The position numbers and the translations under genes were made by a program. The notes beneath the pieces are model-generated. The model was not told where the DNA came from. It saw nothing but the letters and a program-made list of their open reading frames with translations, and made no database searches. From the NCBI RefSeq assembly GCF_031081985.1, contig NZ_JARWSK010000001.1, forward strand, positions 620,001 to 684,000: a stretch of DNA of 64,000 nt. Direction: 5' to 3'. Positions 10,184 to 53,808 of the stretch are shown in pieces. This DNA is from Komagataeibacter xylinus (GTDB lineage Bacteria > Pseudomonadota > Alphaproteobacteria > Acetobacterales > Acetobacteraceae). Numbering within the stretch: position 1 is the first letter of the stretch; every line of letters begins with the position of its first letter.

Positions 10184-10789
10184 TCAGGGATAAAGGCGCT
10201 CGGTCTGCCACCCGTCGGGCGTGCGGTCCCACACGGCGCGGTCATGCAGGCGGTAGGGGCGATCCTGCCAGAACTCGAAGTGCCGGGGCACAAGGCGGAA
10301 GCCACTCCAGTTGGCGGGGCGGGGAATGACGGCGTCGGGGTCGGGGTAGCGGGCCTCGAGGTCCGCCACCGCCTTTTCAAACACGGCGCGGTCAGCGAGC
10401 GGGTGCGACTGGTTTGAGGCAATCGCGCCAAGCCGTGAAATCCTGCTGCGGCTGGCAAAATAGGCATCGGCCTCAGCCGGGGTGACGGGTTCGACCGGCC
10501 CTTCGATACGGATCTGGCGGCGGATGCTCTTCCAGTGAAACAGCAGGGCGGCGTGCGGGTTGGCCTTCAGCTCGGCTGCCTTGCGGCTGTTGAGATTGGT
10601 GTAGAACACGAAGTCCCGCCGGTCGGCGCCCTTGAGCAGGATCATCCGCACCGAGGGGCGCCCTTCGGCGGTGGCGGTGGCCAGCGCCATGGCGTTGGGG
10701 TCGTTGGGTTCATGGGCCGTGGCATCCGCCATCCAGGCCGTGAACAGGTCGAACGGGTCGGCGGCGAGGTCGATCAGGGGTGAGGTCAT
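10184..10789 (-). CDS. pdxH: pyridoxamine/pyridoxine 5'-phosphate oxidase
   Basis: FMN-dependent last step of vitamin B6 synthesis, oxidising PNP/PMP to PLP in the cytoplasm. The 201-aa protein has family landmarks: [25 protein letters not shown], the FMN-contact [14 protein letters not shown], and the C-terminal [13 protein letters not shown]. The ATG at 10789 starts the conserved region; a longer frame to 10882 adds a non-conserved tail. Several PLP enzymes (glyA, bioA, bioF) lie in the window, but nothing suggests direct co-regulation. Confidence 0.94.
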
Positions 10790-10868
10790 GGGCTCCGTCC
10801 GCTGGGCGTTTCGCGCCTGCCACCTGGCCGGGCGACGGGATGCGAAACATATGGAAACATAAGGTAAG

Positions 10869-10896
10869 TTACCGTGTGACAAATATTAGCTACAAT
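10869..10896 (+). promoter_or_regulatory. candidate fabI promoter
   Basis: TTACCG (10869-10874), a 16-base spacer and TACAAT (10891-10896) form a reasonable sigma-70-type promoter in an AT-rich patch about 90 bp upstream of the fabI start. Chosen by eye. Confidence 0.4.
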
Positions 10897-10987
10897 TAGA
10901 GCATTCGGCATCTTGTCCGAAACGGCAGCTTGTGCAACCACGAGGCCGAAAATTTCATCCGTCATTTACCAGTTTAAGGATAGCAGC

Positions 10988-33339: not shown

Positions 33340-34827
33340 ATGGTCATGACCCCACTCAACAAGACATCCCTGCCCCACCTGCCGCCCGAGATCGTGGTGC
33401 CTGCCTATGACCGCAGCAAGGTAACGCCCGGCATCGCGCATATCAGCGTTGGCAATTTTCATCGCGCGCATCAGGCCGTCTATATCGACCGCGTGCTGGC
33501 GCGCGCGGGCCAGGAAGGCTGGGGCCTGCTGGGCGTTGGCCTGATGGAAAACCCGCACGAGGCGCTCAAGGCGCAGGACATGGCAGCACAGGACTGCCTG
33601 TATTCCCTGACCGAATGCGCACCCGATGCGCCGAACGTGGTGCGCGTGATCGGCTCCATTACGGAGTATATGTACGCCCCCGCCGACCGGACCGCCACCA
33701 TCGCCCGCCTGGCCGACCCCGCTATTCGCATTGTCAGCCTGACCGTGACCGAGGGTGGCTATTACGTTGATGAAAATGGCGTCTTCCCCCTCGATCACCC
33801 CGTCATTGCCGAAGACCTCAAGCGTGAGGTTCCGCACACGGTGTTCGGCCTGCTGACCGAGGCACTCCGCCAGCGGCGCGAGAGCGGTGCGGGTCCGTTC
33901 ACCATCCTGTCATGCGACAACCTGCCCCAGAACGGCCATGTGGCCCGTGCCGCCTTCCTCGGATGGGCGCGGGCGCGTGACGCGGGGCTGGCGCAATGGA
34001 TGGAGGAGAACGTCACCTTCCCCTGCACCATGGTGGACCGCATCACCCCCGCCGTGCACCCTGAGGATGTCAAACGCCTCGATGCCGAAAGCGGACTGGA
34101 TGACCGTATTCCCGTTTTCTGCGAGGATTTCATCCAGTGGGTCGTCGAGGACAAATTCTGCGCGGGCCGCCCCGAACTCGATGCCGTGGGCGTGCAGTTT
34201 ACCGATAATGTCGAGCCTTATGAGGCGGTGAAGCTGCACATGCTCAATGCCTCCCACTCGCTGCTCGGACTTTCGGGCGTGCTGTCGGGCTACCGGTTTG
34301 TCAGCGAGATCATGCTGGACCTCAACGAGGTGGCCCTCGTCGAGCAGTATCTGGCCTTTGATGCCGAACCCCTGCTGCATGCGCCACCAGGCATGGCGCT
34401 GCGGGACTATGGCAGGCGGCTGCTGCACCGTTTCCGCAACAAGGCGATCAGCGACCAGTTGCTGCGCATTGCCTTTGACAGCACCTCCAAGCTGTCCATG
34501 TTCATCAGGAGCACCGCCATGGGCGTGATCGCCCATAACCGCCCGGTAGAGCGGATTGCCTTCGTGGTGGCCTGCTATGCGGAATATCTGCGCGGGCGTG
34601 ATGATAAAGGCACAGTCTATGATGTGGTCGAGCCACACCTGACCGATGAAGACCGCCTCAAAGCGGCCTCATCCAACCTTGAAGATGCCTTGGACATGAC
34701 CGCCTTTGCAGGCTGGGACCTGCGGGAAAGCACGGTTTTCGTGCAGCGCTACCTTGCCTTGCGCCAGTCCCTGCGCGACCGGGGAACCCGCGCCACGCTG
34801 GCGGAGGTTATATCCGCCGGGGAATAG
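33340..34827 (+). CDS. mannitol dehydrogenase family polyol dehydrogenase
   Basis: NAD(P)-dependent long-chain polyol dehydrogenase interconverting sugar alcohols and ketoses (mannitol/fructose, arabitol/xylulose or similar). The 495-aa protein has the N-terminal HISVGNFHRAHQAVYIDRVL nucleotide-binding segment and the catalytic KLHMLNASH motif with Lys298, Asn303 and His306. The exact substrate cannot be assigned. ATGs at 33340 and 33346 are both possible starts. Its position before gcd groups it with sugar oxidation, but a 136-bp gap suggests separate transcripts. Confidence 0.9.
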   Translation: MVMTPLNKTSLPHLPPEIVVPAYDRSKVTPGIAHISVGNFHRAHQAVYIDRVLARAGQEGWGLLGVGLMENPHEALKAQDMAAQDCLYSLTECAPDAPNVVRVIGSITEYMYAPADRTATIARLADPAIRIVSLTVTEGGYYVDENGVFPLDHPVIAEDLKREVPHTVFGLLTEALRQRRESGAGPFTILSCDNLPQNGHVARAAFLGWARARDAGLAQWMEENVTFPCTMVDRITPAVHPEDVKRLDAESGLDDRIPVFCEDFIQWVVEDKFCAGRPELDAVGVQFTDNVEPYEAVKLHMLNASHSLLGLSGVLSGYRFVSEIMLDLNEVALVEQYLAFDAEPLLHAPPGMALRDYGRRLLHRFRNKAISDQLLRIAFDSTSKLSMFIRSTAMGVIAHNRPVERIAFVVACYAEYLRGRDDKGTVYDVVEPHLTDEDRLKAASSNLEDALDMTAFAGWDLRESTVFVQRYLALRQSLRDRGTRATLAEVISAGE

Positions 34828-34963
34828 ACGTTCAGGGGGAGATTTAACCTCCTGAAATATTACGACACACGTTTTATTCATAATGTTGGGCTTGACCTGA
34901 TGGCGTCTCCTACGTTTTCTCATTGAAAATGTTCGGACTGTATCACGGTAATCAGGAAAACTT

Positions 34964-37354
34964 ATGAATAGCCTCATGCGCTCGGCTCCCCTTCTCGCCG
35001 CGGCCATTGCCGTCTGCGCCCTGACAGGTCTCTACCTGCTGGGAGGCGGGCTATGGCTGTGTCTCATCGGCGGCTCCTTTTATTATGTCATCGCTGGCAT
35101 ATTGCTGCTGGTCACGGCCGTGCTGCTGGCGCGGCGGCAGGCCATGGCGCTTACGGTCTATGCCGTGCTCCTGCTTGGCACGATGGTATGGGCCGTGCAG
35201 GAAGCCGGGTTTGATTTCTGGGCACTCGCACCGCGTGGCGATATTCTGGTGCCCATTGGCATCGTGCTCGCCCTGCCGTGGGTCACGCGCCACCTGCAGC
35301 CTGCCAGCCCTGCCACCCGCCTGCCCCTGTTCGGCGCGATCGGTGCCGCCGTGGTCGTCGTTGGCGCGGCCCTGACACAGGACCCGCAGGATATCGCGGG
35401 CAGCCTGCCGCCCGTGGCGGAAAATGCCCCCGAGCCGGGCGATGCCCACCAGATGCCCGATGAGGACTGGCAGGCCTATGGCCGCACCCAGTTTGGTGAC
35501 CGGTTCTCCCCGCTCAAGCAGGTCAATGCCAGCAATGTCAGCAAGCTGAAGGTTGCCTGGACCTTCCGCACCGGCGACCTGCGCGGACCCAATGACCCCG
35601 GTGAAATCACCGACGAAGTCACGCCCATCAAGATCCGTGATACGCTCTACCTGTGCACCCCCCACCAGATCCTGTTCGCGCTCGATGCGAAGACCGGCCA
35701 GCAGCGGTGAAAGTTTGACCCCAAGCTGGCCTACAACCCCACCTTCCAGCACCTGACCTGCCGTGGCGTGTCCTATCATGAGGACAAGGCGGATGATGCG
35801 CAGGCAGCAGAGGGTGCCGCAGCGCCGACCGAATGCGCGCGCCGCATTTTCCTGCCCACCAATGATGGCCAGCTTTTCGCGCTCGATGCCGCAACCGGCG
35901 CGCGCTGCGCAAGCTTTGGCAATAATGGCGTGGTGAACCTGCAGGACGGCATGCCGGTCAAGACGCTGGGCTTTTACGAACCCACCTCTCCCCCGGTCGT
36001 GACCGATACCACCGTGATCGTGTCCGGCGCCGTAACCGACAACTATTCCACGCATGAGCCTTCGGGGGTGACGCGCGGCTTCGACGTGCATACCGGCGCG
36101 CTGAAATGGGCGTTCGACCCCGGCAACCCCGATCCGAACGAGATGCCGTCCGAGCACCACAGCTTCGTGCCGAACTCACCCAATTCGTGGATCACGTCAT
36201 CCTATGACGCCAAACTCGACCTGATCTACATCCCCATGGGCGTGCAGACGCCCGATATCTGGGGAGGCAACCGCGGTGCCGATGCCGAGCGCTATGCAAG
36301 CTCCATCGTGGCGCTCAACGCCTCCACCGGCAAGCTGGTCTGGTCCTACCAGACCGTGCACCACGACCTGTGGGACATGGACATCCCCGCCCAGCCCAGC
36401 CTGGTCGATATCCGCAACGAACAGGGCGAGGTCATCCCCACCCTGTACGCCCCGGCCAAGACCGGCAACATCTTCGTGCTTGACCGGCGCAACGGCCGGC
36501 TCGTGGTCCCTGCCCCCGAACAGCCGGTGCCGCAGGGCGCAGCGCCGGGCGATCACGTTTCGCCCACGCAGCCCTTCTCGCAGCTGAGCTTCCGCCCCAA
36601 GAAGCTGCTGACCGATGCCGACATGTGGGGCGGCACGATGTATGACCAGCTGATCTGCCGCATCATGTTCCATCGCCTGCGCTATGACGGCACATTCACG
36701 CCGCCTTCGCTGCAGGGCACGCTGGTCTTCCCCGGCAACCTTGGCATGTTCGAATGGGGCGGGCTTGCGGTTGACCCCGTGCGCCAGATCGCGATTGCCA
36801 ACCCCATCGCCATTCCGTTCGTTTCCAGACTGATCCCGCGCGGGCCGAACAACCCGGCAACGCCTGACAAGTCCCTGCCCTCGGGCTCGGAGAGTGGCGT
36901 GCAGCCGCAGTTTGGCGTGCCTTACGGCGTGGACCTGCATCCGTTCCTCTCGCCGTTTGGCCTGCCGTGCAAGCAGCCTGCCTGGGGCTACATGTCGGGC
37001 ATCGACCTGCGCACCAACAAGATCGTGTGGAAGCACCGCAACGGCACGATCCGTGACAGCGCGCCGCTGCCCCTGCCCATCAAGATGGGCGTGCCCAGCC
37101 TTGGCGGCCCGCTCACCACGGCGGGTGGCGTGGCCTTCCTCACCTCTACGCTCGATTACTACATCCGCGCCTATGACGTGACGAATGGCCAGGTGCTGTG
37201 GCAGGACCGCCTGCCCGCCGGTGGCCAATCCACGCCCATGACCTATGCGGTCGATGGCAAGCAGTACATCGTCACGGCTGATGGCGGCCACGGGTCGTTC
37301 GGCACCAAGCTTGGTGACTACATCGTCGCCTACAGCCTGCCTGACGGGAACTGA
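34964..37354 (+). pseudogene. gcd: membrane PQQ-dependent glucose dehydrogenase, interrupted by in-frame TGA
   Basis: Without the stop the frame would encode 796 residues, the usual length of Gcd, which oxidises glucose to gluconolactone in the periplasm and feeds ubiquinone. Residues 1-140 hold the five-helix membrane anchor; the rest is the PQQ beta-propeller (DWQAYGRTQFGDRFSPL, FQHLTCRGVSYHE, QTVHHDLWDMD, GGHGSFGTKLGDYIVAY). Codon 249 is TGA (35708-35710) in GQQR*KFDPKLAY, where the family has Trp, so one TGG to TGA change explains it. All other positions look intact. The 528-codon frame downstream could only begin at GTG 35768 and would lack the anchor. AGGAAA precedes the ATG at 34964. 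Confidence 0.9.
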
Positions 37355-37363
37355 GGCCCCGCA

Positions 37364-37390
37364 CCGGGGAAGGATTTTTTCCTTCCCCGG
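37364..37390 (+). terminator. hairpin after gcd
   Basis: A perfect 11-bp stem (CCGGGGAAGGA / TCCTTCCCCGG) with a T5 loop starts 9 bp past the gcd stop. A U run is missing downstream, but the stem is strong. Confidence 0.65.
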
Positions 37391-37391
37391 C

Positions 37392-37432
37392 TTGACATTG
37401 CCCGTCACATCTATATTCACCTGTATATAGAT
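37392..37432 (+). promoter_or_regulatory. promoter with overlapping palindromic operator
   Basis: TTGACA (37392-37397) is a perfect -35 element; TATTCA (37414-37419) is a -10 candidate at 16-base spacing. A perfect 8-bp inverted repeat ATCTATAT-N8-ATATAGAT (37409-37432) covers the -10 and start region, the usual place for a repressor site. The downstream operon starts about 300 bp later. Confidence 0.45.
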
Positions 37433-37589
37433 GCTGCTCATACAGGCCACCTTGCAAACCATTATCCACGGTTTTGCAGGGATTTTGTGCATTCAGCAGA
37501 AAATCAAATAAGTCTTATCATCGCTTTGATCTTACGCGCGCCCGAATGGCTTGATTAGGAAACGGTAATACTAAAGTTTCCGCCGTGGC

Positions 37590-37654
37590 GCCGATGTTCC
37601 CGCACATCCGGCAGTTCCGGTGCTTCGGAGGGGGTGCAATGTTGCGCCGCCTCC
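37590..37654 (+). promoter_or_regulatory. two-hairpin structured leader
   Basis: Hairpin 1 pairs GCCGATGT (37590-37597) with ACAT-C-CGGC (37604-37612, one bulge). Hairpin 2 pairs GGAGG and GGTGCAA (37627-37639) with TTGCGCC and CCTCC (37642-37654) around a G-G mismatch. Both lie in the expected 5' leader of the aldehyde-dehydrogenase-type operon. I cannot match them to a known riboswitch class. Confidence 0.4.
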
Positions 37655-37705
37655 TGTGTTTCGCGCCATGACGGCACTGGAACCGGGCGGATGATACGGG
37701 GTGAT

Positions 37706-37738
37706 ATGATGACTTTCACAACCGCGAGAACATCGTGA
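37706..37738 (+). CDS. possible 10-codon leader peptide
   Basis: ATG ATG opens a frame for MMTFTTARTS, whose TGA stop overlaps the GTG start of the cytochrome gene as GTGA. A GGGG stretch lies 5 bases upstream of the first ATG. Translation of this short frame could bring ribosomes to the weakly preceded GTG. No biased amino-acid run typical of attenuation is seen except three threonines. Confidence 0.35.
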   Translation: MMTFTTARTS

Positions 37739-39063
37739 TTAAACGTATTGCAGCAGCGATTGTGGGGATCGGTGTCGCCGGTGGCGTCGGGTTCCTGGCC
37801 TATGCATGGTATCCGGCCATTGCGCCGGTTGCACCGCCTCCTCCCTCCACCTTCACCGCCGCCCAGATCGAGCGCGGGCGCGTGCTGGCCGCTGGCGGCT
37901 ACTGCGCGGAGTGCCATACCCGCACCGATGGCGTGCGTGGCGTCGAGCTTGCAGGTGACTACAAGATGGACACGCCCTTTGGCGCCATCTTCTCCTCCAA
38001 CATCACGCCCGACCCCGAGACGGGCATCGGCCACTGGTCGGAGGCTGCCTTCAAGCGCGCCATGCGCAAGGGCATCTCGCGTGACGGCACGCAGCTCTTC
38101 CCCGCCTTCCCGTTCGATCACTTCACCCACATGACGGATGAGGACATCGACGCGGTCTACGCCTTCCTCATGACGCGCCAGCCCGTGCATTCGGTCAAGC
38201 GCGACAATACGGTGGGCTTCCCCTTCAACATCCGCCTCGAGCAGGCGGGCTGGAAACTCCTGTTCCTGCATGAAGGGCCGCTCAAGAACAACCCGAAGCA
38301 GGATGCCGAGTGGAACCGTGGCGCCTACCTGGCCGAAGGCCTGAGCCACTGCTCGGCGTGCCACACGCCGCGTAACCTGATGGGGGCCGAAAAGGCTGGC
38401 GCGCCCTATGATGGCGCCCCGGTCGATAACTGGATCGCCCCCCCGCTCAATGATCATAACCCGACCCCGGTCGTATGGACCGAGGACGAGTATTTCAAAT
38501 ACCTGCGCTTTGGTTCCGCGCCGCTGCACGGCAGTGCCGCTGGCCCGATGTCGCCGGTGGTGCATGGCGGCCTGAGCGAAATGCCGGAATCGGACGTGCA
38601 TGCCATCGCGCATTACCTGGCCGAGATCGATCATGCCTCGACCCGCGTCAGCCAGGACCCCAAGGCCCTTGCATGGGCCATGAAGGCATCGATGAAGGAT
38701 CTGGTCGGCCCGCAGGTCAACCCGAACGCCAAGCTCTATGCCGGCGCCTGTGCCGCGTGCCACGCCAATGCAGGCCCGCAGCCGGTTGAAGGCCGCCCCG
38801 ATCTCGCGCTGAACAATGCGCTGTGGCTGGATGAGCCGACCAACCTGTTCCAGGTCATCCTGCGCGGGATTGGCACGACGGAAGGCATTTCCACGGTGTC
38901 CATGCCCAGTTTCTACCATTCCTTCTCGGATGCGGATCTGGCCCGGCTGGCAACCTACCTGCGCGCAACCCGCACGACCCTGCCGCCGTGGAACGATCTC
39001 GAAAAGAAGGCCGCCGACGTGCGCAAGACCCTGCCTACGCCGCCTGTCGCGTCGTCCCATTGA
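37735..39063 (+). CDS. three-heme cytochrome c subunit of membrane-bound molybdo-dehydrogenase
   Basis: Carries electrons from the molybdenum subunit to ubiquinone at the periplasmic membrane face. The 442-aa protein has an N-terminal hydrophobic export/anchor segment (about 3-30) and three CxxCH heme sites: CAECH (57-61), CSACH (206-210), CAACH (339-343). This is the architecture of AldF/AdhB-like subunits. The start is GTG at 37735; upstream stops exclude a longer frame. The order cytochrome, 2Fe-2S, Mo subunit matches aldehyde dehydrogenase-type (or isoquinoline oxidoreductase-like) complexes of acetic acid bacteria. Confidence 0.88.
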   Translation: MIKRIAAAIVGIGVAGGVGFLAYAWYPAIAPVAPPPPSTFTAAQIERGRVLAAGGYCAECHTRTDGVRGVELAGDYKMDTPFGAIFSSNITPDPETGIGHWSEAAFKRAMRKGISRDGTQLFPAFPFDHFTHMTDEDIDAVYAFLMTRQPVHSVKRDNTVGFPFNIRLEQAGWKLLFLHEGPLKNNPKQDAEWNRGAYLAEGLSHCSACHTPRNLMGAEKAGAPYDGAPVDNWIAPPLNDHNPTPVVWTEDEYFKYLRFGSAPLHGSAAGPMSPVVHGGLSEMPESDVHAIAHYLAEIDHASTRVSQDPKALAWAMKASMKDLVGPQVNPNAKLYAGACAACHANAGPQPVEGRPDLALNNALWLDEPTNLFQVILRGIGTTEGISTVSMPSFYHSFSDADLARLATYLRATRTTLPPWNDLEKKAADVRKTLPTPPVASSH

Positions 39064-53316: not shown

Positions 53317-53346
53317 CGCCGCTGCTTTCCGTCATACTGAGGCATT

Positions 53347-53808
53347 ATGTACCTGCCTGCCCCTTTATCGCGCCTTGTGCGCGTGTTCCTGACCGCCATG
53401 CTGTGCGCTGCCGCGTCCCCTGCCCTTGCCGGATCGTTCGATGTGAGAGACGACTATGGCAGTGGGGAGATTTCGGAATCCGAGCGCTTTTATGTCGATG
53501 AGCAGCTTGTTGCCACCTTTCACCTCGACGCGGACCATACCAGCCAGACGGTCCATGTTGATACGGCAATGGGGCGCCTCAACCACAGCTACGCCCTGTG
53601 TGGGGAAATCTACATTCGCCGCCCCAGTGGCAAGGTCGAGATCCATCAGGTCAGCGGCGAAGGCGTGCTGTATCATCCCGATGGTCACCATTTCGAGGCC
53701 ATCGCCTCGCGCAATTTCACCGAGTTCTACCTTGTCGATGACAATGAGCCCGAAAGCGTCGAACGCCACCCCGGCCATAGCAGCCTGTGTGCCGCTCCCA
53801 CGTCCTGA
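53347..53808 (+). CDS. predicted secreted protein, unrecognised
   Basis: A 153-aa protein with a clear Sec signal peptide (LVRVFLTAMLCAAASPALA, cleavage likely after residue 28 or 29). The mature part is small, acidic and probably beta-rich, with two cysteines (in YALCGE and SSLCAAP) that could form a disulfide. No known motif. GAGG lies 4 nt before the ATG. It is placed antisense between prfA and prmC, its stop 12 bp from the prfA stop and its start 30 bp from the prmC start. Confidence 0.7.
   Translation: MYLPAPLSRLVRVFLTAMLCAAASPALAGSFDVRDDYGSGEISESERFYVDEQLVATFHLDADHTSQTVHVDTAMGRLNHSYALCGEIYIRRPSGKVEIHQVSGEGVLYHPDGHHFEAIASRNFTEFYLVDDNEPESVERHPGHSSLCAAPTS

Follow-up and report, generated by a model that had tools for sequence, protein, structure and literature searches.

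A single in-frame TGA at a conserved tryptophan codon of gcd in a Komagataeibacter xylinus genome

The interrupted gcd locus

The window, by which we mean the whole 64,000-nt stretch of Komagataeibacter xylinus DNA analyzed here, holds gcd as two open reading frames (34964-35710, 248 aa, and 35768-37354, 528 aa). The gene is split by a TGA at 35708-35710, which is codon 249 and lies in frame with both the ATG at 34964 and the stop codon at 37352-37354. The features of the locus are as follows.

34964..37354, + strand: gcd, membrane PQQ glucose dehydrogenase frame with one interruption (from the ORFs, their translation and TIGR03074)
34964..35707, + strand: N-terminal piece of 248 residues, with the hydrophobic anchor and the first 80 propeller-profile positions
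35708..35710, + strand: TGA replacing the conserved Trp codon 249 (from orthologue alignments)
35711..37351, + strand: C-terminal piece of 547 codons, holding all eight checked active-site positions
35768..35770, + strand: GTG codon 269, the first in-frame ATG, GTG or TTG past the TGA
37364..37390, no strand assigned: terminator-like inverted repeat just 3′ of gcd, its 11-bp arms (read by eye) matching perfectly around a 5-base spacer

Translation through the TGA yields 796 residues with no second stop or frameshift. Against NCBIfam TIGR03074, the profile of membrane PQQ dehydrogenases of the glucose/quinate/shikimate family, this read-through frame reaches 1132.4 bits (cut-off 832.65). The N- and C-terminal pieces score 271.2 and 834.7 bits, respectively, on adjoining parts of this one profile, indicating a single gene with one interruption. 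A preliminary description had identified the gene as a PQQ glucose dehydrogenase gcd carrying one nonsense codon in an otherwise intact 796-codon frame, and the codon-249 TGA in an otherwise intact gcd is confirmed here. Because its frame is interrupted, the gene is a broken member of the membrane PQQ glucose dehydrogenases and not a working one.

The 248-residue product retains hydrophobic stretches at residues 3-79 and 117-140, which qualify as a membrane anchor, and it covers the initial 80 positions of the propeller profile. The eight positions that we take, by E. coli numbering, to form the E. coli Gcd active site are all identical in the window's gene (8/8), and all of them, at 263-776, lie downstream of the TGA. 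E. coli Gcd (L141), likewise a member of TIGR03074, shares these positions and is 65% identical over 781 aligned positions; unlike the E. coli gene, the window's frame is interrupted at codon 249. No hydrophobic stretch above threshold was found in the C-terminal piece, in agreement with the earlier claim that the downstream part has neither anchor nor export signal. The restart candidate GTG codon 269 lies past His263 with no ribosome-binding site seen before it, and CTG codons are present at 255 and 264. Since the C-terminal piece has no evident export signal and the first ATG, GTG or TTG falls beyond His263, a restart is very unlikely to produce an enzyme that is both functional and exported.

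No clear T run follows the inverted repeat at 37364-37390. The repeat suggests that gcd is the end of its transcript, so that polar effects of the stop would probably be small.

Codon 249 among relatives and the age of the lesion

The genome, a 16-contig draft, was compared with one genome per species. gcd is present in all 19 genus genomes (the window's own included), and in a whole-genome search the stop was seen only in the window's copy, the gcd frame being free of stops in the other 18/18. Codon 249 is TGG in 59 of the 61 loci first aligned; the two rows with TGA (L001 and L006) are both the window's own gcd, which had been fetched twice. Among the other orthologues with at least 55% identity, codon 249 is TGG in 44/44 (18 from the genus and 26 from the family), so that the comparison across Komagataeibacter proposed in the preliminary description returns TGG throughout the 18 other genomes of the genus. 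A later set, made up of the best 80 named loci, extends into enterobacteria and Burkholderia and includes 8 repeats of loci already inspected; it likewise has TGG (80/80). The conservation of Trp at this position, likewise asserted earlier, is borne out by these two sets, and no in-frame UGA kept in relatives was found in either. The family search returned some match, to gcd or its relatives, in 117 of 200 genomes, and the codon check covered the loci returned.

Trp also occupies the equivalent position in the paralogues of the same genome and is aligned there in the solved quinohaemoprotein alcohol dehydrogenase 1yiq. Position 249 closes an A-x-D-x-x-T-G-x-x-x-W stretch, which we take to be the tryptophan-docking motif.

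We considered and rejected a recurrent TGA in the family: G035 and G059 had been flagged as containing one TGA, yet the loci L045 and L050 read TGG at codon 249 and their alignment is stop-free. G159 and G119 were flagged as well; the codon inspection covered the loci of G035 and G059. Only one of the 80 named loci, from a metagenome-assembled enterobacterium (L112), contains a stop, at position 778.

In the gcd tree, the window's gene is sister to that of G016 (support 0.999). Compared with six close relatives, it has 17 synonymous and 5 missense private changes in addition to the nonsense, versus a summed 126 synonymous and 25 missense private changes in the six relatives (Fisher test, p=0.55 without the nonsense and 0.25 with it). 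Relaxed selection on gcd is not visible in these counts, which indicates that the loss is recent or not real. By a simple mixture estimate, the dead part of the gcd terminal branch is 4-5%, with an upper bound of 18-22% depending on the assumed transition bias. The gene thus has the appearance of a recent pseudogene, with one lesion, no accumulated damage and restriction to one lineage, and the earlier view that the event is recent fits the private changes as counted here.

Mutation, artefact or readthrough

The window is collinear with G016 (95.4% nt), G017 (93.6%) and G018 (92.6 and 92.9%, in two blocks). As a comparison of longest ORFs was swamped by antisense ORFs, we instead used gene calls based on codon usage, with which 48, 50 and 46 genes of G016, G017 and G018, respectively, have a counterpart in the window. 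Among the compared genes, gcd is the sole clear mid-gene break in the window. The remaining flagged stops lie within codons 3-55 of ORFs in the relatives; we took them as start-site differences, a reading checked by family for bioA and YifB only.

Two further sites in the window were noted. A TGA at 53338-53340 corresponds to codon 71 of a 226-codon ORF in G017 and to codon 29 of a 184-codon ORF in G018; it is followed by an ATG at 53347 and represents either a start-site difference or a truncation. Near 10187-10965, the N-terminal match to G016 is lost.

We think it probable that a recent single-base nonsense mutation has inactivated the one gcd of glucose type that we identified in this Komagataeibacter genome. 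One base change would have converted Trp codon 249 to UGA, and translation would end after 248 residues, so that the product has the anchor and the beginning of the propeller but lacks an active site. Periplasmic oxidation of glucose to gluconate would then be little or none, the medium would acidify less and more of the glucose would remain for uptake and cellulose, while slight amounts of wild-type protein may persist via misreading of UGA by tRNA-Trp. A single recent nonsense allele is an ordinary biological phenomenon, and gcd loss as an adaptation or as an outcome of laboratory selection is unproven here. Among the titles and abstracts returned by our searches of open-licence papers, none describes a nonsense gcd allele of natural origin in Komagataeibacter.

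The main rival to a recent loss-of-function allele is a single-base artefact, arising from a misassembled or miscalled base or from a variant confined to the stock culture or the DNA preparation, with the strain's own gcd intact. Such an error would be expected to look like a lone base change in an intact, constrained gene, as it does here, and the TGA is private to one genome. However, no other clear mid-gene break occurs among the compared window genes, and the genome's listed completeness is 100%, with contamination at 0.77%. The single break argues against a generally poor assembly and is compatible with one wrong base; weighing these points, we regard an artefact as unlikely. An engineered base edit was also considered and rejected. 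According to an excerpt of one report, base editing in Komagataeibacter can turn Trp codons into stops, the targets named there being mannitol-metabolism genes (PMC11837512), and nothing here points to editing.

A more improbable reading is that of a leaky allele, in which basal misreading of UGA by tRNA-Trp would produce low, possibly useful levels of full-length Gcd, so that activity is down and not off. Of the three stops, UGA is the one that tRNA-Trp misreads most readily, and here it sits exactly at a Trp codon, where near-cognate misreading would restore the native residue. The base following the TGA is A, a leaky context. Against this, the tRNA-Trp is a normal one, having by hand numbering a 5-bp anticodon stem together with A9 and G24; its gene shows no difference in 16 of 18 relatives and 99% identity in the remaining two, and the RF2 gene frame is open. 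The excerpted text of a study of UGA readthrough names a tRNA-Trp with a 4-bp anticodon stem, A9C or G24A as readthrough features (PMC13092985), and none of the features given in that text is present in this tRNA-Trp. Loss of function in this gcd allele may be strong without being complete.

Decoding of the UGA by design, through an altered code, selenocysteine or a suppressor tRNA, would suit a frame that stays open when the TGA is read through, but we dismiss it as highly improbable, given that no other inspected orthologue has TGA at codon 249, that 24 of 35 tallied genes (of 50 ORFs called) end in TGA, more than in any other stop, that the tRNA-Trp is normal and RF2 open, and that ARAGORN, which named 46 of the 47 Rfam tRNA matches, tRNA-Trp (CCA) being one, gave none of them a UCA anticodon. 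The 47th match is degenerate, and its predicted loop lacks UCA. No Rfam match at gathering score was found in 34500-37900. tRNA-Ile is absent from the 46 tRNAs named by ARAGORN, so the draft assembly may lack some tRNAs or other parts.

A tRNA-like sequence at G000:C9:312752-312822 (L200, L234; 39 bits) is whole only in the window's genome among the 19. It was rejected as a candidate suppressor, having a 4-bp anticodon stem and an 8-base loop without UCA. Its last 28 bases are 89% like tRNA-Met 3′ ends, and a Bro-N phage-type ORF lies approximately 2.5 kb away.

Related dehydrogenases and metabolic consequences

The preliminary description had also called for a search for a second gcd copy. 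The genome does encode one other full membrane TIGR03074 member, C12, with an intact 875-aa frame (952.7 bits) that is 45% identical to the window's gene. This paralogue has Asn at the equivalent of E. coli Gcd His262, and on this one residue, from which we infer its substrate, it is probably not a glucose back-up. An sldA-like protein in the same genome scores 767.7 bits, below the TIGR03074 cut-off; neither this protein nor the C12 paralogue clearly qualifies as a second glucose dehydrogenase. Soluble GDH-like candidates were rejected, as PF07995 gives partial matches in 19/19 genus genomes (best 53 bits) and is not specific to glucose dehydrogenase.

Breaks were also observed in other quinoprotein genes of the compared near relatives. 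The C12-type gcd paralogue is frameshifted near residue 760 in G016 (L211) and interrupted by a 1150-base insertion in G018 (L212), the insertion containing two IS630-type transposase pieces that are each below the curated cut-off, and the sldA-like gene of G017 (L213) carries a TAG at residue 430. The C12-type paralogue is intact in G006 and G014 and has an unbroken frame in G007. Each of G016, G017 and G018 thus has one different break in another PQQ dehydrogenase gene, which was less expected than the gcd lesion itself. Together with the gcd TGA, these make four separate lesions at three loci: the TGA, the paralogue frameshift, the IS630-type insertion in the same paralogue and the sldA-like TAG. 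Breaks affect 3 of 12 non-gcd quinoprotein genes versus 0 of 191 gene comparisons from the window region (p=0.00016), a statistic that is post hoc, uses one control region and draft assemblies and counts unresolved ORFs as intact. Under assumed break rates of 1-5%, the chance of the quinoprotein breaks is 0.0002-0.02. Because the comparison is post hoc, with one control region and draft assemblies, we treat the pattern as a lead only, and we consider it doubtful that recurrent, independent loss of periplasmic PQQ sugar/polyol dehydrogenases is a feature of Komagataeibacter in the K. xylinus neighbourhood. If true, such repeated loss would fit selection that spares sugars from periplasmic oxidation, through the loss of one enzyme or another depending on the lineage.

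In another genus of the same family, a gcd-like gene is likewise split in one genome (G185, L214). Unlike the window's gene with its single TGA, it is in two pieces that lie 902 bases from each other and are read in different frames, and the piece flagged with a TGA has no stop within its aligned part.

Elsewhere in the window's genome, the pqqB frame is open, as are the frames of the cellulose synthase cluster (755, 831 and 1321 aa), corresponding to BcsA, presumed BcsB (assigned by position and size) and BcsC. K. xylinus K2G30, which by coordinates we take to be G017, has an open gcd and, as described in an excerpt of one study, makes much gluconate from glucose (PMC9605694); on this basis, low gluconate is predicted for the window's strain.

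The preliminary description further held that loss of Gcd favours cellulose. In an excerpted review, this is true of two engineered GDH-deficient strains, in which cellulose rose approximately 2-fold (PMC7347698), and the claim stands for such engineered mutants only; its interpretation overall is partly supported. These strains, GD-1 (of BPR2001) and GDH-KO (of BCRC 12334), lost the same enzyme as is interrupted here. They were made by homologous recombination, whereas the window's is a point nonsense allele known from the genome record alone.

If the recent nonsense mutation is real, the strain is gcd-deficient by nature and has open cellulose synthase genes, a state that engineers build for higher cellulose yield and less gluconate, and its metabolic models should not take periplasmic glucose oxidation for granted.
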